Below, piece by piece: positions 8,128-28,003 of a DNA stretch of 64,000 nt (the first letter of the stretch is position 1; every line of letters begins with the position of its first letter). The translations under genes and the position numbers were made by a program. The DNA is taken from positions 1 to 64,000 of the forward strand of contig JAUWLW010000001.1 of NCBI GenBank assembly GCA_030613505.1, given 5' to 3'. The notes under the pieces are model-generated. The model was not told the origin of the DNA, ran no database searches, and saw only the letters and a program-made list of their open reading frames with translations. The DNA comes from Candidatus Zixiibacteriota bacterium (GTDB taxonomy: Bacteria; RBG-13-66-14; B26-G2; WVWN01).

Positions 8128-9132
8128 TTAGCATATCCTCGGCAGCTGGTCGGCGAGCGGCATCTCCAGGATACGCGTTCCGCCCACGGCGGTCCGGACG
8201 AAGACGCGCTTGGGCTCGGCCACGACTTCGCCGATGACCGCAGCGCGCGCGCCCAGCGGGTGGCCGCGCATCGCGGCTACGAGCGCCTCCGCCTCGGCAG
8301 CCGGCGCCACCGCGACCACCTTCCCCTCGTTGGCTACCAGGAGGGGGTCGAGCCCCAATATCTCGCACACCGCGACGACGTCTTCGTCGAGCGGTATTTT
8401 CTCCTCGGAAATTTCGACGCCGACGCCGTGCGCCGCCGCGACTTCGTTGAGGGCCGCGGCCAGGCCGCCGCGCGTCGGGTCCCGCATGAACTTCAGGCCG
8501 GGGGCGGCTTCGCGCATCGCGGCGCACAGGCCGCCCAGCGGCGCGCAGTCGCTCTCTATAGTCGACTCGAGCTTGAACTGCTCGCGCGCTACCATGACGG
8601 CGACGCCGTGGTCGCCGAGGGTGCCGCTTAACAACACCGCGTCGCCGGCCTCGAGCGGGGCTCGCGCCGGCCCGCCGCCTTCGAACACGCCCACGCCGGA
8701 GGTGGTGATGAAGATGCCGTCCGCCTCGCCTCGAGCAACGACCTTGGTATCGCCGCAGACTATTTCCACCCCCGCTTCCCGCGCCGCCGCGGCCATCGAC
8801 GCCACGACGCGCTCGAGCGTCGCGAGCGGCAGCCCCTCCTCCAACGTGAAGCTCGCCGACAGATACCGCGGGGCGGCGCCCATCACCGCCAGGTCGTTGA
8901 CGGTGCCGCACACCGCGAGCTTACCCATGTCGCCGCCGGGGAAGAACAGCGGCTTGACGACGTACGCGTCGGTGGTGAACGCTATCTGCCCGGACGCCAG
9001 CTCGACCGCGGCGGCGTCGTCGAGCTCTCGCAGCGCCGGGTTGTCGAAGTGGCGCGCGAAGACGTCCGCGACGAGCCGCCGCATCAGCAGGCCGCCGGCG
9101 CCATGGCCCATTTGTATCAACTCTTCACTCAT
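8128..9132 (-). CDS. hypE: Hydrogenase cyanide-ligand synthase HypE
   Basis: A 334-residue PurM-like ATP-dependent dehydratase. It opens with the GHGAGG motif, has the ATP-binding core TTDAYVVKPLFFPGGD, and ends in LPRIC. The C-terminal Cys receives the carbamoyl group from HypF and is dehydrated to thiocyanate for the Fe(CN) ligands. The start overlaps the end of hypD by eight bases, which suggests translational coupling. Confidence 0.95.
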   Translation of the reverse strand: MSEELIQMGHGAGGLLMRRLVADVFARHFDNPALRELDDAAAVELASGQIAFTTDAYVVKPLFFPGGDMGKLAVCGTVNDLAVMGAAPRYLSASFTLEEGLPLATLERVVASMAAAAREAGVEIVCGDTKVVARGEADGIFITTSGVGVFEGGGPARAPLEAGDAVLLSGTLGDHGVAVMVAREQFKLESTIESDCAPLGGLCAAMREAAPGLKFMRDPTRGGLAAALNEVAAAHGVGVEISEEKIPLDEDVVAVCEILGLDPLLVANEGKVVAVAPAAEAEALVAAMRGHPLGARAAVIGEVVAEPKRVFVRTAVGGTRILEMPLADQLPRIC

Positions 9133-10216
9133 ATTCGTATTTTAACGCCGCGGCGCAGCTCCCCTCGGATGAGACCATGCACGGCCCCACCGGCCTGGCC
9201 GGCGTGCACTCGTCGCCGATGAGCGAACACTCGGCCGGAACCTTGGCGCCGGTGAGGACTTCGCCGCAAATGCAGCCCCGGTCCGGGACCGTCTCCTCCG
9301 GCTCGACCTCGAACGTCCGGGCCGCGTCGAGGGCGGCGTATTCCTCGCGCAGCGCCAGGCCGCTGGCCGGCAGGTCCCCCAGGCCGCGCCAACGCGAGTC
9401 GCAAACGTCGAACACCTCGGCCTGGATTTCCTGCGCCCGCGGGTTCCCCTCCTCCTTTACGACGCGGGAATATTGGTTGTCGACGCGCCGCTCGCCGTCG
9501 ACGTATTGCTTCAATAAAAGATAGATACCTTGAAGGATGTCGACCGGCTCGAAGCCCGCCACGGCGCACGCCAGGCCGTAGTCGCGCGGGATGAACTCGT
9601 AGGCGCGCGCGCCGATTATCGCGCTCACGTGGGCCGGGCACAGGAAGCCGTCGAGAGCGACGGCGCCGCCGTCGCACAAAACCCGCATCGCCGGCGGTAT
9701 CAACTTGTGCGCGGCAAATATGAAATAATTTCGGATGCCCGCGGCCGCGGCCTCCTTCGCGGTGGCCGCGACGGTGGGCGCGGTGGTCTCGAAGCCGACC
9801 GCCAGGAATACTACGGCCCGTTCCGGCCCGGCCCGGGCGAAGGCCAGCGCGTCCCTCGCCGAATAGACGACGCGCACGTCGGCGCCCTCCGCCTGCAACC
9901 GCAAGAGATCCGTCGAGCTGCCGGGGACGCGCATCATGTCGCCGAACGTCGCCACCGTGACGCCCGGTTCGCGCGCGAGCGCGACGGCGTAATCGACGTA
10001 CTCCTTGGGCGTCACGCACACCGGGCAGCCGGGCCCGGATATCAACCGGACGTTGGAGGGAAGGAGCTCCTTTAAGCCGTAGTGCGCTACCGCCATGGTA
10101 TGCGTCCCGCAGACCTCCATGAACGTGAAGTCGCGGTCGTCCGGCGCGACGGCCGCTACGGCGGCCGCAACCTTGCGGACCCGTTCGGCGTCGCGAAACT
10201 CGTCTAAATATTTCAA
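9125..10216 (-). CDS. hypD: Hydrogenase iron-site assembly protein HypD
   Basis: A 363-residue HypD. I place the start at a TTG at 10214-10216 that overlaps the hypC stop in a TTGA. This gives the family's usual start KYLDEFRD and length; the frame stays open upstream but only in a non-homologous arginine-rich stretch. Conserved parts are FMEVCGTHT, GPGCPVCVTP and the [4Fe-4S]-binding C-terminal Cys region (GCICGEVLTG). HypD with HypC is the scaffold on which Fe(CN)2CO is built. Confidence 0.94.
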   Translation of the reverse strand: MKYLDEFRDAERVRKVAAAVAAVAPDDRDFTFMEVCGTHTMAVAHYGLKELLPSNVRLISGPGCPVCVTPKEYVDYAVALAREPGVTVATFGDMMRVPGSSTDLLRLQAEGADVRVVYSARDALAFARAGPERAVVFLAVGFETTAPTVAATAKEAAAAGIRNYFIFAAHKLIPPAMRVLCDGGAVALDGFLCPAHVSAIIGARAYEFIPRDYGLACAVAGFEPVDILQGIYLLLKQYVDGERRVDNQYSRVVKEEGNPRAQEIQAEVFDVCDSRWRGLGDLPASGLALREEYAALDAARTFEVEPEETVPDRGCICGEVLTGAKVPAECSLIGDECTPARPVGPCMVSSEGSCAAALKYEYE

Positions 10217-10443
10217 CTCCCGCGCCCCGTATCGAATCCTATCTGGTCGAGGAGCTCGAGCGTCTCCCGCGCGTCCTCCTCGTCGAGAATTTCGATGGCG
10301 AATCCGGCGTGGACTATTACGTAGTCGCCCACCTTCGCCCCGGGCGAGAGCGAGAGGTCGCACTCCTGGCGCACGTTCGCCATCTCAACCGTCGCGGTCG
10401 TCCCGTCGACCGTTATTATCTTCATCGGTACGCCTAAACACAT
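10213..10443 (-). CDS. hypC: Hydrogenase assembly chaperone HypC
   Basis: A 76-residue HypC starting MCLGVPMK; the N-terminal Cys2 binds the iron precursor shared with HypD. The beta-barrel core (VGDYVIVHAGFAIEILD) matches the family. It overlaps hypD by four bases and starts eight bases after the hypF stop. Confidence 0.95.
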   Translation of the reverse strand: MCLGVPMKIITVDGTTATVEMANVRQECDLSLSPGAKVGDYVIVHAGFAIEILDEEDARETLELLDQIGFDTGRGS

Positions 10444-10451
10444 AAGACCGA

Positions 10452-12740
10452 TCAGTCCTTCTCGAGCCGGGCCAACGCCACCGCGGCCTGGCCCAGCGAT
10501 AGGCCGCCGTCGTTCGTCGGCACTCGTTCGTGGATTAAAACCTTGAAGCCGGCGCCCTCGAGCGTCGGCACCAGTTTATTCAACAAGGTAATATTCTGAA
10601 AGCAGCCGCCCCCCAGCGCCACCGTTTCCAGGCCGTACTCGTCGCGGAGCGCCGCGGCGACGTCGGCCACGATGGCGGCGACGCCGTTGTGGAAACGCGT
10701 CGCTATTACGCCGGGCGCCACGCCGGCCCGCACGTCCGCTACGACCGCCTCGACTACCGGCGCGGCGTCGATTATTGAAGGTTTCCCTTTCTCGTACGAG
10801 AACTCGTACGCTCCTTCTTCGTCGGGCGCGGCCAGCTGCTCGAGCTCGAGCGCGGCCTGGCCCTCGTAATTGATGAAATTGCGGAGCCCCGCCAGCGCCG
10901 CGACGGCGTCGAAGAGGCGGCCCATCGAGCTGGTGGGCGGCGCGTTCACGCCCTTCGCCGCGGCCTCCAGCACCATCTCGCGCCGGCCTTCGGGGATATC
11001 GTCCAGAAAGGGCAGCGGCCTTTTGAGGGCGTCGTCGCCGTGGAGTGCGCGGAGCCAGCTCAGCGCCATCCGCCACGGCTCGCGCGCCGCGGCGTCGCCC
11101 CCCGGCAGGGGGACGTACTTCAAGTGCGCCGCGCGCTCGTAACCCGCGAGGTCGGCGACCAAGAACTCGCCACCCCACACGGCGCCGTCGTCGCCCAGGC
11201 CCGCGCCGTCGAAGACGACGCCGATTACCTTTCCCTCATAATAGCCGGCGTCCGCGAGGACCGAGGCGACGTGCGCGTGGTGGTGTTGGACGACGACCTC
11301 GGGCAGGCCCGTGGCCAGCGCGTACCGCGACGCTAGGTAATCCGGGTGGAGGTCGCGGGCGACCGCGGCCGGTTCGACGTCGAACACGTCCCGGAAGTGC
11401 GCGACCCCCTCCTCGAACGCTTCCAAGGTCGCGACGTTCTCCATGTCGCCGACGTGGTGGGAGACGAATGCCTGCGAGCCTTTGGTAAAGCAGAACGTGT
11501 TCTTGAGCTCGGCGCCGACGGCCAGCACGCTCGTCTTATAAGCGCGGCCCAGCTCGAGCGGCAGCGGCACGTAGCCGCGCGAGCGCCGGATGGGGTACTC
11601 GCGGCCGCGGAAGACCCGCGTCACGCTGTCGTCGACGCGGCGCGCTATGGCGCGGTCGTGCGCCAGGTAATAGTCGGCGATGCCGGCGAGGTGCTCAACC
11701 ACTTTATCGTCGCGGTAGGCGATAGGCTCGTCGGCGCGGTTGCCGGAGGTCATGACCAATATCTCGACGTCGTCGTCGAAGAGCAAGTGGTGCAGCGGCG
11801 CATAAGGGAGCATGACGCCGAGGTAGCGGTTGCGGGGCGCGATCGCCTCCGGCAGGTGGCACGGCTCGAGCTTGCGGAGAAGGACGATGGGCCTCTTCTC
11901 GGAGGTCAAGAGCGCCAGCTCGTCGTCGTTGAAGTCGCAGTAGCGCCGCACGACGGCGACGTCCCGAGCCATAACGGCGAACGGCTTGTCCTCGCGGTAC
12001 TTGCGCGAGCGCAGCTTCTCGACCGCCTCGGCCGACGTAGCGTCGCACGCGAGGTGATAGCCGCCCAGGCCCTTGACGGCGACGACTAGGCCGTCGAAGA
12101 GGAACTGCTTCGCGTCGCCGAGCGCGTCGTCCGTCTCGAGCGGCTTCCCCGCGCCGTCCCAGAGGGCGAGGGACGGGCCGCACGCCGGGCAGGCGTTCGG
12201 TTGGGCGTGGAAGCGGCGGTTGCCGGGGTCGTCGTACTCGGCCCGGCAGGCCGGGCACATCGCGAAGGAGGACATCGTCGTCTTGGGCCGGTCGTAGGGT
12301 ACGCCTTGGATAATAGTGAAGCGCGGGCCGCAGTTGGTACAGTTGATGAAGGGGTACCGGTACCGGCGGTCGGCAGCCTCCAGGAGCTCGTCGAGGCAGT
12401 CGCCGCAGGTGGCCAGGTCCGGCGAGACCAGCGTCGCCGCCGCGCCGGGAACGCTTTCTTTTATTACAAACGCATCCTCGCCGGCGGGGGCTACCTCTTC
12501 CTCCTCCACCGCGTCCAGCCGCGCGCGGGGCGGAGGCGCGGCCTGAAGCTGCGTCACGAACTCAGCAACAACCTCCGGCGGCCCCTCCAACTCGACGACG
12601 ACGCCGGCGCCGTCGTTGAGGACGAAGCCGGCCAGACCCAGGCGCGAGGCGAGGTTGTAAACGTGCGGCCTGAAGCCGACGCCCTGGACGACGCCGGTCA
12701 CGCGCAGCCTTTTCCTAACTATCGTCGTTGCCGTTTTCAC
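10452..12740 (-). CDS. hypF: Carbamoyltransferase HypF
   Basis: A 762-residue protein with the full domain set: an acylphosphatase domain (about 8-95, GVVQGVGFRPHVY), two zinc-finger-like CxxC pairs (CGDCLDE, NCTNCGP; CPACRAEY, CPACGP), a YrdC-like domain (about 200-385) and a Kae1/TobZ-like carbamoyltransferase domain (about 390-762) with HHHAHVASVLAD and GLGDDGAVWGGE. It makes carbamoyl-adenylate from carbamoyl phosphate and loads HypE. Its start overlaps the end of the maturation protease gene by four bases. Confidence 0.96.
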   Translation of the reverse strand: MKTATTIVRKRLRVTGVVQGVGFRPHVYNLASRLGLAGFVLNDGAGVVVELEGPPEVVAEFVTQLQAAPPPRARLDAVEEEEVAPAGEDAFVIKESVPGAAATLVSPDLATCGDCLDELLEAADRRYRYPFINCTNCGPRFTIIQGVPYDRPKTTMSSFAMCPACRAEYDDPGNRRFHAQPNACPACGPSLALWDGAGKPLETDDALGDAKQFLFDGLVVAVKGLGGYHLACDATSAEAVEKLRSRKYREDKPFAVMARDVAVVRRYCDFNDDELALLTSEKRPIVLLRKLEPCHLPEAIAPRNRYLGVMLPYAPLHHLLFDDDVEILVMTSGNRADEPIAYRDDKVVEHLAGIADYYLAHDRAIARRVDDSVTRVFRGREYPIRRSRGYVPLPLELGRAYKTSVLAVGAELKNTFCFTKGSQAFVSHHVGDMENVATLEAFEEGVAHFRDVFDVEPAAVARDLHPDYLASRYALATGLPEVVVQHHHAHVASVLADAGYYEGKVIGVVFDGAGLGDDGAVWGGEFLVADLAGYERAAHLKYVPLPGGDAAAREPWRMALSWLRALHGDDALKRPLPFLDDIPEGRREMVLEAAAKGVNAPPTSSMGRLFDAVAALAGLRNFINYEGQAALELEQLAAPDEEGAYEFSYEKGKPSIIDAAPVVEAVVADVRAGVAPGVIATRFHNGVAAIVADVAAALRDEYGLETVALGGGCFQNITLLNKLVPTLEGAGFKVLIHERVPTNDGGLSLGQAAVALARLEKD

Positions 12741-13255
12741 GCCGGGGGATTCTTCAACGCCTCGAGTACGGCCGCGGCCGCCTCCTCCACCGCGGCGGCG
12801 ACGCGAGGCGACAGCTCTTCTTTAAATTCGTACAGCCACTCCGCCTCGACGGCGACGACCGTCACCTCACGCGGCGCGCCGAGCTCGAGCCCCGAGAGGA
12901 CCGCCAACGCCGAGGCGAGGTTGACGCCGTGGCTGTGGCCGAGGTGGGCCGTCGGCTTGAGCGCGTCCGCGGAGAACTTGTACACCGTCCCCGGCTCGCC
13001 GCCCTCGGTCTTGATGGCGTCGGCCACGACGGCCCGCTCGTATCCGCGGAGGTAGTCCACCAGGTCGAAGCCGCCGGTGCACGCCTCGTCGACGTCGACG
13101 GTGGCGGCGAGCTCGGCGGGCAACAACTCGGCCACGCGGCGGGCGACGTGTATGCCGACGCCGTCGTCGCCGCGGATGACGTTGCCGATGCCCAATACCA
13201 ACGTTTTGCCCCGTCTGGCCTCGAGCTCGGCGGACATGGACTGAAATTGTAACAT
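12737..13255 (-). CDS. Hydrogenase maturation endopeptidase
   Basis: A protein of 166-172 residues of the HycI/HyaD/FrcD protease family. GIGNVIRGDDGVG is the characteristic N-terminal motif with the first metal-binding acid; DADE-type acids and the HSHG region supply the remaining nickel ligands. The protease removes the C-terminal extension of a [NiFe] large subunit after nickel insertion. The large subunit in this window ends only about 27 residues after its DPCxxC motif, so a short peptide could still be removed. The start may be ATG 13255 or ATG 13237; the latter is closer to homologue starts. It is the first gene of the hyp operon. Confidence 0.9.
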   Translation of the reverse strand: MLQFQSMSAELEARRGKTLVLGIGNVIRGDDGVGIHVARRVAELLPAELAATVDVDEACTGGFDLVDYLRGYERAVVADAIKTEGGEPGTVYKFSADALKPTAHLGHSHGVNLASALAVLSGLELGAPREVTVVAVEAEWLYEFKEELSPRVAAAVEEAAAAVLEALKNPPA

Positions 13256-13349: not shown

Positions 13350-14816
13350 TCAGCAGTTCCTTTTGACCGTACGGCGGAGCTTGCGGTCGGCGTCGTAGAT
13401 CTCGATTTCGAGGGGCATCTTGCCGGGGAGGCTGTGCGTCGCGCATGCCATGCAGGGGTCGTAAGCGCGGAACGCCATCTCCACCATGTTGAGCTTGCCC
13501 TCGTCCACCTCGCCGCCCTTGATGACGCCCTTGGCGGCGCTGGCGACGGAGAGGTTGATGCCGGCGTAGTTGTGGGTCGTCGCGACGATGAGGTTCATCT
13601 CGGTCACGATGCCGTTCTCGTCGGTGTCGTAGTCGTGGATGAGGTGGCCGCGCGCGGCCTCGATGGTCCCCACGCCCCGGCTCGGCGTCTCGGTCGGGAT
13701 GTTGCGGATGTGCTCGTCGAGGATGTCGTCGTCCTGCATATATTTCAGCCACAGCTCGGCGCCCTGCGCGCCCTCGATGATGCGGGCCCAATGGTAGGCG
13801 AGCGTGGCGTGGACCGGCTTGCCGCCCAGCGTCTCGTACATCTTCTCGAACTCGGCCTGCGCCACCGGCGTCTGCATCCCCTCGGAGGCGTTGAGCCGGC
13901 CCAGCGGGCCGCCGCGGTAGATGCCGGAGTCCTTGCCCGTAACCCAACCCGTCCAGCCGACGTTCTTGAGGTACGTCACCTTGAGGTAGGTCCAGGGCTC
14001 GACGCGCTCGGCGATGTGGTCGAGGTAGTCGCTGCCCTCGTACTTCACGAACTCGTTGCCCTCCGGGTCGACGATGCGCGTCATGCCGTCGTAGAATTCG
14101 ACTTTGTTGTCGTCGTCGACGAGGCCGATGTAGTACGTCTGCTGGCCGCCGTAGATCTCGGAGAGGACAAGGTCGACGTACTCCTTGTTCTTGAGGACTA
14201 CGTCCTCGAAGAGCTGGAAGGTGAACTTGGAGAACTCGACCGCCTCCTCGGCGTGCTTGCGCATCTCGTCGCGGGTCTCGGCGTCCAGCGGCCGCGTGAG
14301 GCCGCCGGGGAGGGCGATGATGGGGTGGGTGCGCTTGCCGCCGAAGTATTTCATGACGTCGATGGCCTTGGCGCGCATGTCGATGACCTTCTTGCCGGTC
14401 TCCAGGCCCACCTTGTCTATGAGGCCGAGGATGTTGCGCGCGGCCGGGTCGGCCGTGGGCCCCACGACGAAGTCCGGCGCGGCGAGGTAGTAGAAGTGCA
14501 GCAGGTGGTCGTAGAACATGTAGGAGTTATATATCATCCGCCGGAGTCTCTCGCCGTTGGGCGGCAGCTCCACCTTGTAAACCGCGTCACATGCCTTCGC
14601 GCCTGCGAAGTGGTGGACGAGCGGTCAAACGCCGCAGATGCGGGGCGTGATCCGGGGGACTTCCTCCACCGGCCGGCCCACGCAGAACTGCTCGAAGCCG
14701 CGCAGCTCCGGGATCTGGAGGTACGCGTTCGCGACGTCGCCAGCGTCGTCCAGGAAGATGGCTATTTTGCCGTGCCCTTCCAGGCGAGAGATGGGGTCGA
14801 TCTCGATTTTCCGCAT
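13350..14816 (-). CDS. vhuA: [NiFe(Se)]-hydrogenase large subunit, Mvh/Vhu type, with UGA read as selenocysteine
   Basis: A 488-residue protein if the in-frame TGA at 14625-14627 is read as Sec64. The N-terminal nickel motif then reads RICGVU-PLVHH where homologues have RxCGxCxxxH, and both sides continue the family without any gap (KACDAVY follows). The C-terminal motif DPCMACATH keeps both cysteines. A 6-bp hairpin with loop AGGC begins 14 bases after the TGA. Read as a stop, the TGA would leave a useless 63-residue peptide. The known [NiFeSe] enzymes I am aware of carry Sec in the C-terminal motif, so the L1 position is unusual. The partner small subunit lies just upstream. A true stop follows KRNC, leaving little to be cut by the protease. 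Confidence 0.92.
14595..14610 (-). promoter_or_regulatory. Putative bacterial SECIS hairpin of the large subunit
   Basis: On the minus strand CTTCGC pairs with GCGAAG around the loop AGGC. The loop begins 20 bases after the UGA, inside the 16-37 base window of the bacterial SECIS consensus, and contains the expected guanines. Outer CAC/GTG bases could extend the stem. Confidence 0.6.
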
Positions 14817-14881: not shown

Positions 14882-15862
14882 CTATTCGTCGTCGTCTTTG
14901 CGTTCGCCGCGTTGGACGCCCAGCATCGACTTCGCCAGGCCGAAGCGGTAGAAGTAGCCGGCGGGGTCGTCCAATTGGCCGAGGACCCTGTCGGCCTCCT
15001 CCTGCGTGTCGGCAATAACTAACGAGGCGATGGCCGAGGCGAGTTTGGCGCCCATGTCGTTGACGTTGTCGGTGGGGCCGAAGCAGCCGCGGCATCCCTG
15101 CCCCGCGACGACACACGCCGCCTCGCAGCCGTCGCGCGTCGCCGGTCCGCAGCACATTATCCCCTGCTCCAGCAGGCACTTCTCCGGGTCGTTCTCGACG
15201 AGGTGGATGCGCTTGAACTCGGTGATCTGTTTCTCCTCCGACCGCTCGCGCGGGCACTCGTCGCACACGGCCTTGGTCCCGGCGATGACGGTACCCTTGG
15301 GCGGGAGCTCGCCCGAGGCCACGGCCTCCACCGCGGCCACGATCCACTTCACCTGCGGCGGACAACCCGGGAGGTAGTAGTCGACGTCCACTACCTGGTC
15401 GAGGGCGTAGGAGCGCTCCATCGCGCGCGGCAGCGTCAGCTCGCCCTCGGGGGCGTCGAACGTCGTCTGGGGCCGCGTCCCCTCCGGGTTGACCACCGAG
15501 GGGACGGTGTCGTACATCCGGTGCGCGATCTCCTCAGTCGTCCAGAAGTTGCCCAGCGAGGGTATGCCGCCCATTTGCGCGCAGGCGCCGAAGGCGACGA
15601 GGACCTGGCTCTTTTGCCGCATCAGCTTGGCGTGGTAGACGTCGTGCGTATTGCGGACGGCGCCGTTGTAAAAGCCCACCGTTACGCCGCCGTCGGGGAT
15701 GGCCTCCAGGTCTTTGTCCTTGAAGTCAAGCACGGTAGGCCAGTAGACGATGTCGGCCAGCTCCGCAACCTTCAAAATAACTTCGTCGATGTCGACGATG
15801 GCGATCTCGCAGCCACCGCAGCTCGCGGAGGGCATGAAGGCGAACTTGAATTTCTCAGGCAT
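14882..15862 (-). CDS. vhuG: [NiFe]-hydrogenase small subunit, MvhG/VhuG type
   Basis: A 326-residue cytoplasmic small subunit. SASCGGCEIAI holds the proximal-cluster CxxC, with further ligands at GACAQMGG and LPGCPP. A ferredoxin-like C-terminal part follows with CDECPRER, CLLEQGIMCCGP and CRGCFGPTDNV. It passes electrons from the nickel site to MvhD and HdrA. There is no Tat signal, as expected for a soluble Mvh-type enzyme. Its start overlaps the stop of the selenocysteine MvhD gene by eight bases. Confidence 0.94.
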   Translation of the reverse strand: MPEKFKFAFMPSASCGGCEIAIVDIDEVILKVAELADIVYWPTVLDFKDKDLEAIPDGGVTVGFYNGAVRNTHDVYHAKLMRQKSQVLVAFGACAQMGGIPSLGNFWTTEEIAHRMYDTVPSVVNPEGTRPQTTFDAPEGELTLPRAMERSYALDQVVDVDYYLPGCPPQVKWIVAAVEAVASGELPPKGTVIAGTKAVCDECPRERSEEKQITEFKRIHLVENDPEKCLLEQGIMCCGPATRDGCEAACVVAGQGCRGCFGPTDNVNDMGAKLASAIASLVIADTQEEADRVLGQLDDPAGYFYRFGLAKSMLGVQRGERKDDDE

Positions 15863-16304
15863 GGACTTCCTCCTGGGCCACGGCGGGGTCCTCGACGCCC
15901 TCGGGCATCGGCCCGAGCTCCTTTATCCGCTCGGTAAATTCCGCAACCATCTCGGCGAACAGCTGGGCTTCCGAGGCGCTGACCCACTCGAGCCGGAGCC
16001 TTTCGGGGTTGACGCCCATCTGCTGCAGCACCTTCTTGAGAAGCGTTACGCGACGGAGAGCCTTGTAATTACCTTCCTGGTAATGGCAGTCGCCGGGGTG
16101 TCAACCGCCCACCAGGACGCCGTCGGCGCCGTGGGCGAAGGCGTCCAGCACGAACTGCGGGTCCACCCGGCCCGAACACATTATGCGGATGGAGCGCACG
16201 TTGGGCGGGTACTTTATGCGCGACGTACCGGCCAGGTCAGCGCCGGCGTAGGCGCACCAGGTGCAGAGCAGGCCGACGATCTTGGGTTCGAAAGCTTCCG
16301 CCAT
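15855..16304 (-). CDS. vhuD: MvhD/VhuD-type iron-sulfur protein with UGA read as selenocysteine
   Basis: A 149-residue protein with Sec68 from the TGA at 16101-16103. The sequence runs [17 protein letters not shown] and continues through the family ([12 protein letters not shown]) to a stop that overlaps the small-subunit start by eight bases. The start ATG at 16304 has GGAAGG upstream; the longer open frame is not homologous. N-terminal Cys ligands are in [10 protein letters not shown] and IMCSG. MvhD carries a [2Fe-2S] cluster and joins hydrogenase to HdrA. The same Cys-to-Sec swap is known in archaeal VhuD. A hairpin with loop AGGAA lies at SECIS distance after the UGA. Confidence 0.93.
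16068..16084 (-). promoter_or_regulatory. Putative bacterial SECIS hairpin of vhuD
   Basis: On the minus strand ATTACC pairs with GGTAAT around the loop AGGAA. The loop starts 22 bases after the UGA. A GG in the apical loop is shared with the two other UGA-linked hairpins in this window. Confidence 0.6.
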
Positions 16305-16354: not shown

Positions 16355-16780
16355 CTAAATAAACATCTCCGCGCGGGTGGGATTCGGGCCGGCCTCCTGC
16401 AGCGACTCGGTCATCGCCGTAACGACGCGCTTTACTTTCGCGCCCTCCGAGGCCGGGATCCATACGAGCTTCAAGCGCCGGTTATCCAATCCCAACGTGT
16501 CGAAAATCTTTTCCACCAGGGCGTACCGACGCCGCGTTTGGTAGTTGCCCGTTTTATAGTGGCAGTCGCCCGGCGCGCAGCCGGCCACCAGTACGCCGTC
16601 GGCGCCGATGAGAAGGGCCCCGAGGGCGAAGACCGGGTCGGCCCGGCTCGAGCACATAACGCGGACGACCTTGGTAGTCGGCGGCATCTTCATGCGGCTC
16701 ACGCCGGCCAGGTCGGCCGCTGAATAGGAACACCACCGGCAGAAGATACCCAGGATATCGGGTCTAAATTCTTCGCTCAC
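16355..16780 (-). CDS. MvhD-like iron-sulfur protein (cysteine form, second copy)
   Basis: A 141-residue MvhD paralogue. I choose the GTG at 16780, which overlaps the upstream stop in a GTGA and has GGAGAGG upstream. Cys ligands are in [14 protein letters not shown] and [17 protein letters not shown]; the position that is Sec in the next gene is Cys here. It probably docks one of the FrhB-like or HdrA-like proteins encoded directly upstream, while the Sec copy serves the hydrogenase. Confidence 0.9.
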
Positions 16781-17901
16781 GATCCGAACCTCTCCTCGCC
16801 GACCTCCGCGAGTTCCTCCTCCTCGAAGCGTTGGAGGGGCACCTCTTCCTCCGGGTCTTTGCCGGGCACATATTCGAATAGCGCCTGCGTCTCCGCCCCC
16901 ACCTTCGCGAACAGCGTGGCGACGGGTACGTATACGGGGCAGGCGTCGGCACACATACCGCACCCCACGCACGAGGCGCTCATGTGCGTCAGCCGGCCTA
17001 GGTGGAAGAGCAGCGTATCGGGCGGTACGCGCGTCCCCTCTTTGCGTTTCAAATGAACGTCGAAGGTCCGAGGCGTCGGCTCGGTCGCGGCCGCGTCGAA
17101 GTAGCAGATCTCACAGCAACATATCGGGCATACGCTGCGACAGCTGCGACAGCCGACACAACGTCCGAAGAAAGCGACCAATCCCTCCAACCCGGGCGCC
17201 GGCAGCGGCTCCGTCTCGAAGAGCTCCGCCCGCGCCGCCCCCCGTTTTTCGCGCAAAGACTTGACGCCGGCGGTCTCTACCTCGGCCTCGCCGGCGGCGC
17301 CTTCCAATCCCTCCAGCGCCTCGTCGCCTCGCGGCGTGCGCGCCACGACGGCCAGCCGCCCGGCCCCGCCGGAGCCCACCGCCGCCAACACTAAGTCGGC
17401 ACCGAAGGGCACGAAATGTTCGCAAGCGGAGCAGGTAGGCCGCAGGCCCTCGGCGGCCTCGCCGTTCGCGACGGCCTCCCAATAGGCGGGGAGGCCGTCG
17501 GCCAGGCCCCCGTTCAAACTCGCCCGGAGCGGATACACGCCGCCGCAGGTGGCGCTTATAAGCAGTATATTTTCGGCGTTGACCTGGTGCAATTTGCCCA
17601 ATTCCACGAACGCGCGCAGCTCGCACGGCCGGAGGAACGCGGCCACCGGTTCCTCGAAGCCCTCCAAGACGGTGAGGCGGGACAATAGGCCGCCGGCGTT
17701 CGCGGGCATCAACGGGTACAGCGGCGTGGCGTTCTCGAGAGCGGCGACGTCGGCGACCAGTTCGTAGTTCACCTCGCCCGCCGGCCCGGTCTCGACGAGC
17801 GTCATCACGCCGCGCACCTTGCCGCTCGAGAGGAGGGACTTCAGCAAGTCCCGGGCGGCGAGGTCGGCGTTGCTTCCTTCCATCAACGCGGCCTTAGCCA
17901 T
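16777..17901 (-). CDS. FrhB/FdhB-family iron-sulfur protein with HdrC-like tail (copy 2)
   Basis: A 374-residue protein; the start is the ATG at 17901, overlapping the upstream stop by eight bases, and the longer frame is non-homologous. The middle part (FLRPCELRAFVELGKLHQ) matches the coenzyme-F420 hydrogenase/dehydrogenase beta-subunit family. Then come RCVGCRSCRSVCPICCC and a second cysteine group CVGCGMCADACP. The C-terminus resembles HdrC. In bacteria these act as electron-transfer flavo/Fe-S subunits rather than true F420 enzymes. It is paralogous to the next gene upstream. Confidence 0.82.
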   Translation of the reverse strand: MAKAALMEGSNADLAARDLLKSLLSSGKVRGVMTLVETGPAGEVNYELVADVAALENATPLYPLMPANAGGLLSRLTVLEGFEEPVAAFLRPCELRAFVELGKLHQVNAENILLISATCGGVYPLRASLNGGLADGLPAYWEAVANGEAAEGLRPTCSACEHFVPFGADLVLAAVGSGGAGRLAVVARTPRGDEALEGLEGAAGEAEVETAGVKSLREKRGAARAELFETEPLPAPGLEGLVAFFGRCVGCRSCRSVCPICCCEICYFDAAATEPTPRTFDVHLKRKEGTRVPPDTLLFHLGRLTHMSASCVGCGMCADACPVYVPVATLFAKVGAETQALFEYVPGKDPEEEVPLQRFEEEELAEVGEERFGS

Positions 17902-19033
17902 CCGCCCCCACCCCCTCCGGCGCGCGCGCCTCGACGTAGGGCTCCGAAAGGTAGGCGAGCTCTTCCTCACGGTAATACGTCGTAGGCACCGCCTCGGCCC
18001 GGTCTCGCCCCGCCTCGTAGTCGAAGAGACTTTGCGTATTCGCGGCCACGAGGCCGAAGAGTTGGGCCACCGGGATCTGCACCGGGCAGGCGTCCTCGCA
18101 GGCGCCGCACGACACGCACGACAGCGAAATGTGGGCCATCCGACCGAGGTGGAACAGGAACGTATCCGCGGGAAGCCGCGCCGCGCCCTTTCGTTCGGCA
18201 CGCGCGAAAACGTTCGCGGCCGGGACCTTCAACGCCTCCGATTCGAAATAGCACTGCCGGCAAAAGCATATCGGGCACACGCTGCGACAGCCGTGGCAGC
18301 CGATACAGCGGCCCAGCGTGGCCGCGAGGCGCTCGGGCCCCGCCGCCTCCTCGCGCAGCGCGCGGTGCGCCTCTTCCTTGGCCTCCCGCCGGCTCGCGTT
18401 TCGCTTCTCCACTTCCGCTTCCCATTCGGCGACCGGGCCAGCGTCGCCGAGGCCCAGTTTCTCGGCCGCGGCTTCCCCCGCGGCGCTCGCAGGCACGACC
18501 ACGACGTTCCCCTCCGGCACCCCCAGCGTACCAAGGTGCAGGTCGGAGGCGGTGTGGGAGAAATGGTCGCAGCTCCTGCAAATTTCCCGCCCGGGTTCCT
18601 CTACCCCCGCCAGCATCTTGCCGAAAAGTTCCTCCCCCGCTTCCGGGTCTTCAACGTAGTCCTTGAGCGGCACCGCGCCGGGGCAATCCATACTTATCAG
18701 GAAAATATCATCCAAGGGCAGCTGTTCGCGCTTATACAACTCCACGGCGGCTCTTACCTCGCAGGGCCTCAATACCGCAACCACCCGGCGAGCCGTCCCG
18801 TGCCGCGCCAACTTGTAGAGCGCCCGCGCGCCGGAGACCGACATCACCGGCGGCAGCGGCGTCGTCCTCTCCAGCGCCGCGGCGTCGCGCAACAGAAGCC
18901 AGGCGTACGAATCGCCCGCCGGGACGCGCGCCGGAACGAGGGCGGCGTCCCACAGGCCGGCCTCCATACCCCGCGCGAGCAGCCCGCGGGCCGCGGCGTT
19001 GGCGTCGTCGCTCTTTAAATTTATACCCTTCAC
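17894..19033 (-). CDS. FrhB/FdhB-family iron-sulfur protein with HdrC-like tail (copy 1)
   Basis: A 379-residue paralogue of the preceding entry with the same order: FrhB-like region (VLRPCEVRAAVELYK, SMDCPG), cysteine cluster RCIGCHGCRSVCPICFC, then CVSCGACEDACP and a C-terminal stretch on a hydrophobic LFGLVAANTQSLFDYE helix. It starts with GTG overlapping the mvhD stop in a GTGA. The two copies probably form a heterodimer or serve two docking sites. The electron partner (ferredoxin, formate or NAD(P)H side) cannot be told from sequence. Confidence 0.82.
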   Translation of the reverse strand: MKGINLKSDDANAAARGLLARGMEAGLWDAALVPARVPAGDSYAWLLLRDAAALERTTPLPPVMSVSGARALYKLARHGTARRVVAVLRPCEVRAAVELYKREQLPLDDIFLISMDCPGAVPLKDYVEDPEAGEELFGKMLAGVEEPGREICRSCDHFSHTASDLHLGTLGVPEGNVVVVPASAAGEAAAEKLGLGDAGPVAEWEAEVEKRNASRREAKEEAHRALREEAAGPERLAATLGRCIGCHGCRSVCPICFCRQCYFESEALKVPAANVFARAERKGAARLPADTFLFHLGRMAHISLSCVSCGACEDACPVQIPVAQLFGLVAANTQSLFDYEAGRDRAEAVPTTYYREEELAYLSEPYVEARAPEGVGADG

Positions 19034-19455
19034 GTCGTAGTTATCTCATTCAACGGGTTCGGGCCCAGCTCTTTGAGGTGGTCGTTGAACTCGGCGGCCG
19101 TATCCACGAACCTGCGGCCTTCGCCGTGCGCCACGAATCGGAACCACAGCCGGTCCTCGCCCAAATCGAGAGCCTCCAGGATCGCCTTCGTCAGCGCCAC
19201 GCGCCGGCGCGCGTGGTAGTTCCCCCCCTCGTAGTGGCAGTCGCCCGGGTAGCACCCGCTCACCGCGACGCCGTCGGCCCCCTCCAGCAACGCCCGGAGG
19301 ATGTGGACCGGGGGAAGCGAGCCGGTACAGTTCACGCGGTAGGGTAGAACGTTGGCGGGATACTTGAGGCCGTGGGCCCGGGCGCTCTCGGAGCCGCCGC
19401 TTCCGCACCAGCTGCATAGAATGTATAGTAACTTGGGTTCGAATTCCTCGTCCAT
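19030..19455 (-). CDS. MvhD-like iron-sulfur protein (cysteine form, first copy)
   Basis: A 141-residue MvhD paralogue. The start is the ATG at 19455, eight bases after the hdrA2 stop; the frame upstream is only a shadow of hdrA2. Ligands are in ILCSWCGSGG, VNCTGS and GADGVAVSGCYPGDCHY. Position directly behind hdrA2 suggests that it is the adaptor for that flavoprotein. Confidence 0.9.
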   Translation of the reverse strand: MDEEFEPKLLYILCSWCGSGGSESARAHGLKYPANVLPYRVNCTGSLPPVHILRALLEGADGVAVSGCYPGDCHYEGGNYHARRRVALTKAILEALDLGEDRLWFRFVAHGEGRRFVDTAAEFNDHLKELGPNPLNEITTT

Positions 19456-19463
19456 AAAGTCCC

Positions 19464-22400
19464 TTACGCCAGGACGGCGTCGAGCGCCGCTATACTCTGG
19501 ATCCCCGTAAAATCGCGCAGGAAAGAGGCGTCGTTCGGGCAGGCGGCCACGCACGTGCCGCACGAGTCGCACAGGAACGGCCTCACCGTGGCCACTTTCT
19601 TTCGGGCGTCGATGACGCGGGCGCCGTACGGACAGACGTCGACGCACACGCCGCAGCCCATGCAAAGCGAATCCTTGACGCCGGCCACGAACACGGCGTT
19701 GGGCGGCGGCATCTTCTTCTTTCCGAGCATCACCATCGCCCGCCCCGCGGCGTCGCGCGCCGTGAGGAGCACTCCCTCGAAAGGCCGCGGCGAGTGGGCG
19801 AGGCCGGCCGCGTAAATGCCGTTAGTGGCCAGCTCGAAAGGTTTGGTCAACCGCTTTATGGCCTCCTCGAAGGGGTAGGCGTTCGCGTCGCTGTCGAAGA
19901 AGCCATCGGCGTCCAAACGGAGGCCGAACGCCGCCGAGAGCGCCTCGTTGTTCTCCCGTTCCGGAACGACCCCGACGCTCAGCACCACGGCCTCCGCCGC
20001 CAACGTCTCGCCGTCCGCGAGCTTCACGGCCAGCCCTTTCTCGCCGGCCTCGACCGTCGGATAAGCATCTTCGTCGAAGCGGCGGAACTGAACGCCGGCC
20101 TCTTGGGCGCTGCGGTAGAGGTCCTCTTCCGCGCCGTAAGTCACCATGTCGCGGTACAAAACCGTAACCTCGGCGCCGCGCTCGCGCAACGCCAGCGCGT
20201 TCTCTAGCGCCTGCGCGCAGCATACGCGGGAGCAATACGGCCTTTCGGGAGTGCGGGAGCCGACGCACTGGACCATCACGACGCCTCCCGTCACCTCTTC
20301 GCCGGCGGCGAGTTTCTCGGCCAGCTCGCGCTGCGTCATAACGCGGCCGTCGTCGCCGTACAGAAATCCCTCCGGCTTATAATCGCCCGCGCCGGTAGCC
20401 AGGATCACCACGCCGAAGCGCTCGACGACCTCCCCCTCCGCCGTATCGAGCTTAACGGCGTAGTTACCGGCGTATCCCTCCGCCGACCGGGGGGAGGCGC
20501 TCTTGTAGACCTTTACGCGCTCGTTCTCCTCGAGGCGCTTTACGAGCTCGGCCAAATAGGCCCGCTGCCCCTCGTCAAGGCCGGCCGCGTTGCCGCCAAG
20601 GTGGTCGTTCCTCTCCACGAGCGCTACTTCGAAGCCGCCGGCGGCGATGCCCTGAGCGGCCTCGAGGCCGGCCAGGCCCCCGCCGACCACGAGCGCCCGG
20701 GACGTAAAGGCGTCGGTCTCCAGCGGCTCTTGGGAGGCGCGCTTGGCCGCCTCCGCGGCGCTCCTTATGAGCGCGAGGGCTTTGGTCCGCATCTTTTCCG
20801 GGTCGTCGTGGACGTCGACTACGTCCTCGCGGAGGGAAACCAGCCGCAGCAGAAGCGGGCTCAGGCCGCCCATCATCACCGTCTTACGATATTTTAAAAG
20901 TTTCTGCAGAGGCGTGCACACCGCGAGGACGACGCGGTTCACACCGGACGCTTTAATTCTCTCGGCCGTCGCCTTCATCGTGGGCGGCGTGCAGCATCCC
21001 TCGACGACCTCCGCGCGGCCCACGCCGGCCAGGACCGCCACGTCCTCGCGCAAGCCATCCAAATCCATCCGCTCGGCGAAGGTCCCGTGGCAGGAGCAGA
21101 TGAATACGCCGACGTTCGGGACCTCGCCGTTCACGTTTCTCAACTCGGGAGGCGGCGCCGGCTTGAAGTTCTTCTCGCCCAGGTATTCCGATACTTCGGG
21201 CAGGAGGGCGCAGCCCTCCCACACCGTTTCGGGGTTGCCCTTGACGCCGGAGCACTCGCCGACGCAGAACACCCCCGGAACCTCCGTTTCAGTCGAGGAG
21301 AACTCGCGCAGGCGGCAGAAACCGCGGCCGTCCGGTTCCACGCCCGTTACCGCGGTTATCTTCTCCATGGTCGCCGGCGCCTTCTGGCCCGTAACCAGTA
21401 CGACGAGCTCGGCCTCCCGGCTTTCGCTCTCGCCGCCGCGTTTGTATTTGACGACGGCGACTCCTTCGGCGGGCGCGACCTCGACGCTTTCGGCCCGGAC
21501 GAAATCGACGCCGGCCTCGCGGGCCTTCAGATACTGGCGGTAGTGCCCCTTGCCGAAGCCGCGGTAATCGGACAGGAAGACCGCGACGTCGGCCTCCGGC
21601 ATTAACTCCTTTATCTTGGCGGCGCGGTACGCGGCCGTCACCGACAGATTGTAATTTTCGTACTCCACGCCGGGCCGGTTGAAATGCGGCGTCACGATAA
21701 CGGCGAAGGTCGCCGGGACTTTTCCCGAGGGTAGGCGAACGGAGTCCTTCACGAAGTTGGTGAGCAGCGAACGGCCGGCGACGTCGGCGTTCCGCACTAC
21801 CGCCGGCGACCGGCCCGCGCCGAAATCCGCCAGGTCCTCGTCGGTGGGGTCCTCGAACTCGCACGCGATGACGATGGCGCCGACGTCGGCCTCGACGGTT
21901 TCCTCCGGCCGCTCGACCTTTATGCAGGCGGTCGGGCAAACCTCCTCGCACTTGCCGCACTTCGTGCAATTCTCCTCGTCGACGACGTAAATATTCTCCC
22001 ACCCGGCCTCCGGTACGACCACGATCGCCTTGCGGCCGTCGACCTCTACCGGGCAGACGTCGACGCATTTGTCACACTCTATGCACGCGAAGTTATTGAC
22101 GTACTGGTCCTTCTTTTTAAATTTTACCTTGAAGTTGCCGGCCTCCCCCTCCACGGACAACAACTCCGCGTTGTAATAGTCGGTAAGGCAGCCCAGCGCT
22201 TTGAAGAGACGTTGCGGCATATGGCCGCAAATCCAGCAGAAATCGAGGGGGAGCTGGGCGAGCGCCTGGTATTTGATCTCGTCGACGTAGCGACCGCGGT
22301 TGAGGAGAATGACTTTGTGGCCGTCCTTACAAAGGGCGTAGGCCGCCCGGTAGCCGGCCAAATTCGTGCCGTAGATTAATACGCTGCTCTCTTTGGCCAC
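19464..22400 (-). CDS. Long HdrA-like flavoprotein with four [4Fe-4S] motifs
   Basis: A 978-residue protein. Residues 1-100 form a degenerate nucleotide-binding domain (VLIYGTNLAGYRAAYALC). Then come CIECDKCVDVCP and CTKCGKCEEVCP (about 105-160), an oxidoreductase domain to about 420, an HdrA-type insertion (FICSCHGTF, EGCCTPPTM), a canonical FAD motif VVGGGLAGLEAAQG at about 580, the HdrA marker CVGSRTPERPYCSRVCC, and a C-terminal ferredoxin with CMGCGVCVDVCP and CDSCGTCVAACP. HdrA flavins perform electron bifurcation in Hdr-Mvh complexes. Its length and N-terminal extension exceed ordinary HdrA (about 650). A second, split hdrA lies upstream. Confidence 0.88.
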   Translation of the reverse strand: MAKESSVLIYGTNLAGYRAAYALCKDGHKVILLNRGRYVDEIKYQALAQLPLDFCWICGHMPQRLFKALGCLTDYYNAELLSVEGEAGNFKVKFKKKDQYVNNFACIECDKCVDVCPVEVDGRKAIVVVPEAGWENIYVVDEENCTKCGKCEEVCPTACIKVERPEETVEADVGAIVIACEFEDPTDEDLADFGAGRSPAVVRNADVAGRSLLTNFVKDSVRLPSGKVPATFAVIVTPHFNRPGVEYENYNLSVTAAYRAAKIKELMPEADVAVFLSDYRGFGKGHYRQYLKAREAGVDFVRAESVEVAPAEGVAVVKYKRGGESESREAELVVLVTGQKAPATMEKITAVTGVEPDGRGFCRLREFSSTETEVPGVFCVGECSGVKGNPETVWEGCALLPEVSEYLGEKNFKPAPPPELRNVNGEVPNVGVFICSCHGTFAERMDLDGLREDVAVLAGVGRAEVVEGCCTPPTMKATAERIKASGVNRVVLAVCTPLQKLLKYRKTVMMGGLSPLLLRLVSLREDVVDVHDDPEKMRTKALALIRSAAEAAKRASQEPLETDAFTSRALVVGGGLAGLEAAQGIAAGGFEVALVERNDHLGGNAAGLDEGQRAYLAELVKRLEENERVKVYKSASPRSAEGYAGNYAVKLDTAEGEVVERFGVVILATGAGDYKPEGFLYGDDGRVMTQRELAEKLAAGEEVTGGVVMVQCVGSRTPERPYCSRVCCAQALENALALRERGAEVTVLYRDMVTYGAEEDLYRSAQEAGVQFRRFDEDAYPTVEAGEKGLAVKLADGETLAAEAVVLSVGVVPERENNEALSAAFGLRLDADGFFDSDANAYPFEEAIKRLTKPFELATNGIYAAGLAHSPRPFEGVLLTARDAAGRAMVMLGKKKMPPPNAVFVAGVKDSLCMGCGVCVDVCPYGARVIDARKKVATVRPFLCDSCGTCVAACPNDASFLRDFTGIQSIAALDAVLA

Positions 22401-22418: not shown

Positions 22419-24242
22419 TCAGGAAAGAACCCCTTCGATCTCCGCCAGGATCTGTTCGTTTTTGAAGTGGCGCTGGTTGGCCGCGCCGGTGGTGCAGGCC
22501 GCGACGCAGGTGCCGCAACCTTTACACAACGCCTCGTTCACCTCGGAAACCTTGTCCTCCTCGTTGAACGAAATCGCGGTGTAGGGACACAGGCCTATGC
22601 AGATCTTGCAGCCGCAACAGACATCCCCGTTAATTACGGCGGTAATGGGCTCTATCTCGACGATGCCCCTGTCCATCAGCGACAACGCCTGGGCCGCGGC
22701 GGCCGAACCCTGGGCCACCGCGTCCGGGATATCCTTCGGGCCCTGGCAGGCGCCGGCCAAGAAGACGCCGTCGGTGGTCGTCGAGACCGGGGCGAGCTTG
22801 GCGTGCTTCTCGGTGAAGAACCCCTCGGCGCCGCAGCTGATGCCGAAGGTGCGCCGGACCGCCTCGGCGTCCTCGCGCGCCTCGAGGCCCGTGGCCAGCA
22901 CCACCATGTCGACCGGGACCCGTCGGTACGCGCCGATGAGCGTATCCTCGCAGCACACGACGAGCTTGCCTTCCTCCTCCGGCCGCTCGGCGACGTCGGT
23001 AATTTCGGCGCCGCGGCCGCGGACGAAGAGGACGCCCTCCTCCAGCAGCCGATCATAGAACTCCTCGTAACCTTTTCCGAACGAGCGCATGTCTATGTAG
23101 AACTGGAATACCTCGGCGTCGGTCTTCTCCTTGAGGAGGTGGGCGAACTTGAGCGAGTACATGCAGCATACCCGCGAACAGTACCTGTTATAGTTTTTAT
23201 CGCGCGAGCCGACGCAGTGGAGGATGGCGATGGACTTGGGTCTCTCGCCGTTCTCCATGAGGGTTTCGCCTTCGGTGTAGCCGTCGGCCCGGTTCATCAA
23301 CTCGAACTCCGAGGCCGAGATGACGTTGGGCAGCATCCCGTAGCCCAACTCCCGGATGCGGCGCGGGTCGAAGGTCTTGAAGCCGGTGGCGAGGATTATC
23401 GTCCCGACGTCGAGCTCGAGCTCCTCCTCGGCGGCGTCGAGGTCGATGGCCTCCTTGGGGCAGATGTCCTCGCAAATGCGACACGCGTCCAATCCGTTTT
23501 CTTCCTGCGTGAAGTGGATGCACTGCGTCTTGTCGACATAGGGGACGTTGGGAACGGCCTGCTTAATCGGGACATTTATCGCCGAGTTCGACGCGAGCGT
23601 CAGCTCGTCGTGGACTATTTCGCGGCCCAGCCGGTCGACGGCCGTAATGGCGCCGGTGGGACATACCGAGGCGCAGGCGCCGCAGGCGAAGCAATTGTCG
23701 GAGGGGCGACCGAAGGGCGGCGCGATCTCGGCGTCGGCGCCGCGCTCGACCAGGCCTATCGCGAACGCCTGTACGCGCTGCTCGCAGATGCGGTAACAGA
23801 GGCCGCACAGGATGCATTTCTTCGGCTTGGCCTCGACTTCGAACTCCTCGGCCCCCTCCGCCTCGGCCGCCGCGGGTTCCTCCGGTTCGACGGCGAAACG
23901 CGATTTCTCAAGGCCGTACTCCTTCGCCATCTCCTGCAGGACTTCGGCGTCGGGCGCGCGGGCCAACAAGAGCTCCAGGACGATCTTGCGAGCCGCGCGG
24001 ACGTCGTCGTCGTCCGTAACGACTTTCATCCCGTCCGTCGACTGTAGCGTACACGAGGTAGTCAGGCGGGGGGCGCCGTTCTCGGACACTTTTACGGTGC
24101 ACATCCGGCACGCGCCGTAGGGCTCGAGAAACGGCACGTAACACAACGTCGGGACGTCGACCCCGACCTCCTTACACGCCTCCAGGACGGTAGTGCCCTC
24201 TTCTACCTCGGCCACCTGATCGTTAATCGTTAACCTGACCAT
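22419..24242 (-). CDS. NuoG-like 2Fe-2S ferredoxin fused to the C-terminal half of HdrA
   Basis: A 607-residue fusion. Residues 1-85 are a plant-type 2Fe-2S ferredoxin as in NuoG or HydA (CYVPFLEPYGACRMCTV, then SC). Residues 140-210 are a [4Fe-4S] ferredoxin (CILCGLCYRIC, CFACGACASVCP). From about 225 the sequence is the second half of HdrA: the IHFTQEENGLDACRICEDIC region, ATGFKTFDP, CVGSRDKNYNRYCSRVCC, and a C-terminal ferredoxin CCGCKICIGLCP and CKGCGTCVAACTTG. The missing FAD-binding first half of HdrA is a separate gene at 28044-28949, so the complex reassembles HdrA from two polypeptides. NuoF/NuoE-like genes lie between the halves. Confidence 0.9.
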   Translation of the reverse strand: MVRLTINDQVAEVEEGTTVLEACKEVGVDVPTLCYVPFLEPYGACRMCTVKVSENGAPRLTTSCTLQSTDGMKVVTDDDDVRAARKIVLELLLARAPDAEVLQEMAKEYGLEKSRFAVEPEEPAAAEAEGAEEFEVEAKPKKCILCGLCYRICEQRVQAFAIGLVERGADAEIAPPFGRPSDNCFACGACASVCPTGAITAVDRLGREIVHDELTLASNSAINVPIKQAVPNVPYVDKTQCIHFTQEENGLDACRICEDICPKEAIDLDAAEEELELDVGTIILATGFKTFDPRRIRELGYGMLPNVISASEFELMNRADGYTEGETLMENGERPKSIAILHCVGSRDKNYNRYCSRVCCMYSLKFAHLLKEKTDAEVFQFYIDMRSFGKGYEEFYDRLLEEGVLFVRGRGAEITDVAERPEEEGKLVVCCEDTLIGAYRRVPVDMVVLATGLEAREDAEAVRRTFGISCGAEGFFTEKHAKLAPVSTTTDGVFLAGACQGPKDIPDAVAQGSAAAAQALSLMDRGIVEIEPITAVINGDVCCGCKICIGLCPYTAISFNEEDKVSEVNEALCKGCGTCVAACTTGAANQRHFKNEQILAEIEGVLS

Positions 24243-27508: not shown

Positions 27509-28003
27509 TTACGCTACCGCTTCCACTTCTTCTTCGGCGGCCTTCGCCTTTACTTTGCCGATTAACTCCGACGTCTTTTTCGTCGTCATGTGGCCGTGAT
27601 ATTCGTCGTTCACCATCACTATCGGCCCCAGCGCGCAAGCGCCGAGGCAGTGAACGTTCTCGAGCGAGAGAGCGCCGTCGTCGGTGGTTTCGCCCGGCTC
27701 GACGCCGAGCTCCTCGATAACGGTCTCGAATATGCTCCTCGAGCCACGGACGATGCAGGCCGTTCCGGTACAGACCTTGACGTGGTTGCGCCCTTTCGGC
27801 GTCGCCGTGAAGGCATTGTAGAACGTCGCGGCGCCGAGCAATCGCTCCAACGGGACGTCCAATTCCTCGGAGGCCAGGATCAAAACCTTTTCGGGAACGA
27901 AGTTGAATTCGTCCTGGATGTCCAATAAGAGCTCGACCAGACCCGCCTCTCGTTGGCGGAAGTTCTCCACCAGCGTCTCGGCCCTTTCCATATCAACTGC
28001 CAT
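27509..28003 (-). CDS. NuoE/HydC-like 2Fe-2S subunit
   Basis: A 164-residue thioredoxin-like [2Fe-2S] protein with four ligands in CTGTACIVRG and CLGACALGP, as in NuoE and in the small subunit of bifurcating hydrogenases. It partners the NuoF-like protein encoded 38 bases downstream. The N-terminal helical half (QDEFNFVPEKVLILASEEL) is also typical. Confidence 0.94.
   Translation of the reverse strand: MAVDMERAETLVENFRQREAGLVELLLDIQDEFNFVPEKVLILASEELDVPLERLLGAATFYNAFTATPKGRNHVKVCTGTACIVRGSRSIFETVIEELGVEPGETTDDGALSLENVHCLGACALGPIVMVNDEYHGHMTTKKTSELIGKVKAKAAEEEVEAVA

Follow-up and report, generated by a model that had tools for sequence, protein, structure and literature searches.

An in-frame UGA at the Ni-Fe bridging cysteine position of an Mvh/Vhu-type hydrogenase points to a new kind of [NiFeSe] active site in Candidatus Zixiibacteriota

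Introduction

The second cysteine of each of the two nickel-binding motifs of [NiFe] hydrogenases (L1 and L2) bridges nickel and iron. Can selenium take the place of sulfur at such a bridge in nature? This question is raised by a 64,000-nucleotide stretch of DNA from Candidatus Zixiibacteriota (GTDB lineage Bacteria; RBG-13-66-14; B26-G2; WVWN01; assembly GCA_030613505.1, contig JAUWLW010000001.1, positions 1 to 64,000), which we refer to as the window. An earlier note on this DNA had pointed out an in-frame TGA where a hydrogenase large subunit should have its second L1 Cys and proposed a bridging selenolate. It contrasted this position with that of characterised [NiFeSe] hydrogenases, where selenocysteine (Sec) is a terminal nickel ligand at the C-terminal motif, in agreement with the literature (PMC13188914, PMC9961374, PMC11212049). 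The natural Sec position is described as a proton-relaying, non-bridging nickel ligand (PMC9961374, PMC11212049), and ideas on why nature uses selenium in hydrogenases, such as proton transfer and O2 protection, rest on this terminal-ligand position.

Results

A complete large subunit frame is interrupted at one codon

The locus contains the following features, with the basis of each assignment in brackets.

13350..14816, minus strand: mvhA/vhuA-type [NiFe]-hydrogenase large subunit, 488 residues plus TGA stop, residue 64 encoded by UGA (NF041785, PF00374 and PDB matches)
14625..14627, minus strand: in-frame TGA (predicted Sec64) at the second Cys position of L1 motif RxCGxCxxxH (codon read in frame, alignment)
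13434..13460, minus strand: L2 motif DPCMACATH, residues 453-461, both Cys kept (translation and alignment)

The mvhA frame runs uninterrupted from its ATG to its own stop codon, likewise TGA, except at codon 64, which lies inside RICGV-UGA-PLVHH. Its translation reads ...EVPRITPRICGV-TGA-PLVHHFAGAKA..., then ...FRAYDPCMACATHSLPGK...KRNC-TGA at the end. The product matches the VhuA model NF041785 over residues 1-433 with 396 bits (below the equivalog cut-off of 800), exceeds the cut-off for PF00374 and aligns over residues 2-484 with the solved structures 7t2r (E 8e-110) and 5odc (E 2.5e-106). Judged by these matches it is a full-length group 3 Mvh/Vhu-type [NiFe] hydrogenase large subunit whose fold is settled by sequence similarity to solved MvhA. 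With UGA counted as Sec, the nickel ligand set is C61, U64, C455 and C458 (DPCMAC). Both the in-frame TGA in an otherwise continuous large subunit, checked on codon and frame, and the intact C-terminal motif of the earlier note were confirmed. mvhA is the only PF00374 large subunit found in the window's genome (93% complete), so no Cys back-up enzyme is seen there.

Residue 64 aligns with a Ni-Fe bridging ligand

In the alignment with solved MvhA (5odc), which is unbroken through L1, U64 lies opposite the second Cys of RICGIC. Residues 2-117 align with residues 17-132 of E. coli Hyd-1 at a constant offset of 15, so that residue 64 corresponds to Hyd-1 Cys79 and residue 61 to Cys76. Homology to structurally known enzymes thus supports the assignment of this position to the Ni-Fe bridge made in the earlier note. 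As the equivalent of the bridging Cys79, U64 should provide the mature site with one bridging selenium, and we consider a bridging selenolate at the Ni-Fe site of MvhA likely. Alternatively, Sec could be inserted without bridging, either in a remodelled site or in a nickel-free subunit serving as an electron-transfer module. We know of no structure of an enzyme with a natural Sec at the second L1 position, a point in favour of such an arrangement, but MvhA retains its first L1 Cys, both L2 Cys and the RLEGH glutamate, the HycI protease is likewise kept, and the alignment continues unbroken through L1, so that a non-bridging Sec is improbable.

The UGA codon is conserved across one order

The comparison covered all genomes available for the phylum, 14 in number including the window's genome. 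The search among homologues suggested in the earlier note finds, within the phylum, UGA at the same position in five genomes, four of the same genus and one of another family in the same order, each mvhA having exactly one TGA and always at this codon. Protein identity to the window's MvhA is 89-91% for the other three genus members and 74% for the same-order genome from the other family; two of the five assemblies are single contigs. Because the same codon is TGA in five genomes, the in-frame TGA at 14625-14627 is genuine and no isolated sequencing error. Sister families of the class (61% identity) have TGC or TGT at the position of codon 64, and the rest of the phylum (54-58% identity) has Cys there, the Cys forms reading CGVC (L023, L024, L028-L032) or KICGVC (L025-L027). 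The five UGA proteins are monophyletic, set apart by a branch supported at 100/100, and the tree therefore fits a Cys codon having become UGA once, close to the root of the order.

Two further mvhA-related sequences were seen. The same-order genome from the other family (G003) encodes a second, distant large subunit of Cys type (L033, 34% identity). Another genome of the genus has, about 850 bases downstream of mvhA, a degraded repeat of the part encoding the C-terminus (FPFRAYAPGTACGAHSLSGNMPLEFDIYDADGELRRTIKRNC; L037, G006:C11:21527-21655), which is a decayed duplication.

Elsewhere, one strict pattern (R-[IV]-C-G-[VIM]-UGA-xx-H-[HQ], Arg as CGN) gave 37 matches and no hydrogenase in 84,980 species genomes, a set that may omit records very near the window's genome; the pattern does not capture Arg encoded by AGR, Lys instead of Arg (which L025-L027 have) or a changed last His. 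The AGR form, run on viral contigs only, gave one chance match and no hydrogenase. The 84,980-genome scan bounds, without excluding, the occurrence of L1-UGA hydrogenases in other lineages.

The genome has the genes for Sec decoding and uses TGA as a stop codon

The window's genome contains selB (above the curated cut-off), selA, a tRNA-Sec with anticodon TCA (UCA) and a Sec-type selD. Across the phylum, selB exceeds its cut-off in 13 of 14 genomes, and selD, found in 13 of 14, always carries one in-frame TGA in the motif G-UGA-xxK. The earlier note had named TGC or TGT in close relatives, combined with a lack of selB and selC, as evidence against Sec; what we find is TGA in the closest relatives together with selB and tRNA-Sec. 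TGA ends 11 of the 19 genes of the mvhA gene run and is thus not reassigned. The TCA anticodon belongs to tRNA-Sec only among the tRNA loci examined, where tRNA-Cys has GCA.

The formate dehydrogenase alpha subunit FdhA is the commonest bacterial selenoprotein, though in this Sec-decoding phylum fdhA (TIGR01591) was not found in any of the 14 genomes.

A second UGA gene and selD share a hairpin design with mvhA

A second in-frame TGA, absent from the earlier note, is located 1.5 kb upstream of that of mvhA at codon 68 of mvhD. The region contains the following FlpD-family genes and hairpins.

15855..16304, minus strand: mvhD (FlpD family) with in-frame TGA at codon 68 (family match, translation)
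16101..16103, minus strand: in-frame TGA of mvhD, VGG-U-HPGDCHY (codon in frame, relatives)
16355..16774, minus strand: second FlpD/MvhD paralogue, Cys form GCAPGDCHY (family match, sequence)
19030..19461, minus strand: third FlpD/MvhD paralogue, Cys form (family match, sequence)
14595..14610, minus strand: SECIS-like hairpin of mvhA, CUUCGC-AGGC-GCGAAG, loop at +23 from the UGA
16068..16084, minus strand: SECIS-like hairpin of mvhD, AUUACC-AGGAA-GGUAAU, loop at +25 from the UGA

The mvhD TGA is present in the same five genomes as that of mvhA, and the other FlpD paralogues reported in the phylum are all without an internal stop; it seems that a single lineage acquired both predicted Sec replacements.

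In the SECIS of E. coli fdhF the loop is AGGUCU and lies some 20 nt from the UGA. Counted from the U of the UGA, the 6-bp stem of the mvhA hairpin begins at 17 nt and its AGG loop at 23 nt; the stem is identical in all five UGA genomes and absent from Cys homologues. After the UGA of selD, the window's genome has CGGCCA-AGGCGC-UGGCCG with the loop at +22, and G003 has CUCCGG-GGCUC-CUGGAG at +22, quite different in sequence and similar in form. The mvhA, mvhD and selD UGAs share the same design of putative SECIS, an AGG loop at +22 to +25. Hairpins of 6 bp with an AGG loop at 18-28 nt follow 0.20% of window positions, and in a looser test 0.35% (mvhA) and 0.5% (mvhD) of synonymous recodings yield an AGG-loop hairpin of at least 5 bp, chance figures that overstate the surprise since the criterion was framed after the mvhA and mvhD hairpins had been seen. 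The selD hairpin, examined after the criterion was set, is an independent check and agrees. Rfam, whose library may not cover such a type, returned no SECIS match at either the mvhA or the mvhD UGA at gathering or permissive thresholds. Minimum free energies of folding after the UGA are not unusual compared to synonymous reshuffles (z of -1.1 for mvhA and 0.2 for mvhD), so the SECIS argument rests on the AGG-loop hairpin and its spacing instead of on stability. No compensatory changes occur in the mvhA stem among the five sequences, which are nearly identical there. The selD hairpins differ in sequence between families (L113-L125), and these loci would be suited to a covariation study of the SECIS.

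These observations bear on the possibility that a near-cognate or reassigned tRNA reads the mvhA UGA as Cys or another ordinary amino acid, leaving a normal [NiFe] enzyme. Such reading as Cys would restore the standard site, as all homologues outside the order have Cys there. It is nevertheless very unlikely in a genome with a dedicated tRNA-Sec plus selA, selB and selD, no other TCA anticodon among the loci examined, ordinary TGA stops and, after the codon in question, a SECIS-like hairpin as in selD.

Both sides of the UGA are under purifying selection

Codons 59-71 of mvhA hold the most synonymously conserved set of 12 eligible codons of the gene, 11 of them invariant in the five genomes against a gene mean of 46%. 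Downstream of the motif, the UGA clade has HHFAGAKA, while HH[MLT]A[SA] stands in every Cys homologue seen (HHMASAKA, HHMASTKC, HHMASGKA or HHTASTKA; HHLASAKA and the like in solved enzymes). The codons for the altered F and G contribute to the hairpin, as would be expected if the coding sequence had been bent to form it. dN is well below dS both before and after the UGA, indicating that the whole frame is translated and constrained. A pseudogene, an assembly error or termination at the UGA, giving an inactive enzyme or one in two pieces, is accordingly hardly credible: the decayed copy in G006 does show decay in this region, but the TGA is common to genomes from two families, selection acts on both sides of it, a split would leave the first L1 ligand and the L2 ligands on separate pieces, and the gene is the only large subunit found in its genome and adjoins a full hyp set.

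mvhA belongs to an Hdr/Nuo-type gene run

The minus-strand run at 8128-30461 is unusual-looking in bringing together Hdr, NuoEFG-like, three FlpD-paralogue, Mvh and hyp maturation genes. Apart from the genes given above it comprises the following, assigned by domain match unless indicated.

8128..9132, minus strand: hypE-like, AIRS domains and C-terminal RIC (domains and sequence)
9125..10363, minus strand: hypD
10213..10443, minus strand: hypC
10452..12740, minus strand: hypF
12737..13255, minus strand: HycI-type hydrogenase maturation protease
14882..15862, minus strand: mvhG-like small subunit (PF01058)
16777..17913, minus strand: FrhB/FdhB-C and 4Fe-4S protein
17894..19033, minus strand: second 4Fe-4S / FrhB-like protein
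19464..22400, minus strand: long HdrA-like flavoprotein with 4Fe-4S domains
22419..24242, minus strand: Fer2 / multi-4Fe-4S protein (NuoG/HydA-like front part)
24282..27470, minus strand: NuoF-like (Complex1_51K) fused to pyridine-nucleotide oxidoreductase
27509..28003, minus strand: NuoE-like protein (inspection of the translation only)
28044..28949, minus strand: short HdrA-like FAD protein
28963..29844, minus strand: HdrB-like (CCG domains)
29841..30461, minus strand: HdrC-like 4Fe-4S protein

From upstream to downstream the order is HdrC, HdrB, short HdrA, NuoE, NuoF and NuoG (all -like), long HdrA, FlpD, two FrhB-like Fe-S proteins, FlpD, predicted Sec-MvhD, MvhG, predicted Sec-MvhA, HycI, HypF, HypC, HypD and HypE. 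This content suggests a combined NADH/ferredoxin/H2 bifurcating complex, and its natural reading is a predicted NAD- and ferredoxin-linked, H2-dependent electron-bifurcating or confurcating assembly.

Discussion

mvhA combines the features of a bacterial selenoprotein gene: an in-frame UGA at a functional Cys of its homologues, selA, selB, selC and selD in the genome, and a downstream hairpin with a G-containing loop. Because the UGA is conserved in five genomes, the Sec machinery is complete, selD and mvhD have a SECIS-like hairpin of the same kind and purifying selection acts before and after the codon, mvhA is very probably a genuine selenoprotein gene in which UGA-encoded Sec is predicted to replace the second L1 Cys, and the proposal of the earlier note gains support on each of these counts. 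In the proposed mechanism, the hairpin, which begins 17 nt past the U, would act as a bacterial SECIS, SelB would deliver Sec-tRNA(UCA) at codon 64 and translation would run on until the gene's regular TGA stop. Maturation by HypC/D/E/F and the neighbouring HycI protease would follow and give a site with one bridging selenolate and Cys at the other three nickel ligands. Electrons from H2 would probably pass from MvhG to the Sec form of MvhD and on to the Hdr/NuoEF-type electron-bifurcating assembly of the same run. With a probability of roughly 0.8, judged from sequence, the locus encodes a natural bridging-selenolate [NiFeSe] hydrogenase that arose a single time from a Cys form, is fixed across the order as its Mvh-type enzyme and serves to tune the H2 site in a bifurcating complex of Hdr/Nuo type.

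If true, natural selenium on the Ni-Fe bridge would mean that selenium can function, and is favoured by selection, at a second site. A new Sec position would be added to a large, well-studied enzyme family, in a gene that annotation pipelines would call truncated.

Among known systems, the closest relative is MvhA/VhuA of HdrABC-MvhAGD (5odc, 9sw2), which shares the sequence family, the L1 and L2 motifs, the MvhG and MvhD neighbours and the Hdr context but has Cys at L1 position 2, where UGA is found here. The best match among solved structures, the [NiFe] large subunit of 7t2r/7t30, reads RICGICPVSHH and likewise has Cys where U64 sits. FruA/FrhA and VhuU selenoproteins of Methanococcales and Asgard archaea also have Sec in a group 3 large subunit, but as UxxC at L2; in methanococci, the Vhu selenium is on the separate VhuU peptide. 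The archaeal SECIS elements of these genes lie in the 3' UTR, whereas the putative SECIS described here lies in the coding region just after the UGA. In periplasmic [NiFeSe] HysAB (1cc1, 2wpn, 5jsu) one nickel Cys is similarly replaced by Sec, but at the first position of the C-terminal motif, as a terminal ligand and in another subgroup and cellular location than the cytoplasmic-type MvhA. Selenium-containing Vhu enzymes carry it at L2 position 1 in the motif UxxC, and UxxC is the sole form of Sec given for VhuA/VhuU/MvhA and FrhA in a 2026 review of selenoproteins in prokaryotes, which also lists Sec in VhuD and HdrA (PMC13188914). This classical hallmark is absent here, all five genomes having DPC[MF]ACATH with both Cys. 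Targeted searches of the open-licence literature found no natural Sec at L1 in published hydrogenases. The mvhD UGA, by comparison, falls in the known family of Sec-containing MvhD/VhuD, described in Methanococcus and Desulfobacterium autotrophicum (PMC2702500), and, compared at the level of the family, differs in nothing of note but lineage. A bridging selenium has an engineered precedent, as Hyd-1 was given an artificial Sec at each of its four nickel Cys (Evans et al. 2021, as relayed in PMC9961374 and PMC11212049), one of the four at the equivalent Cys79, although in a different hydrogenase group. The earlier note's further suggestion of altered oxygen tolerance or kinetics is a guess: among the Hyd-1 variants it was Sec at the position known from natural [NiFeSe] enzymes that gave the large gain in O2 tolerance, and one should not presume that the bridging position confers a benefit; the enzyme proposed here would be the natural counterpart of the engineered variant and a direct test of the effect of the bridging chalcogen. 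Lacking Sec at the classical position yet belonging to the Mvh/Vhu family, the predicted Sec-MvhA would represent a new variant, and we conclude from the gene and its relatives that the locus probably encodes a new type of [NiFeSe] hydrogenase.
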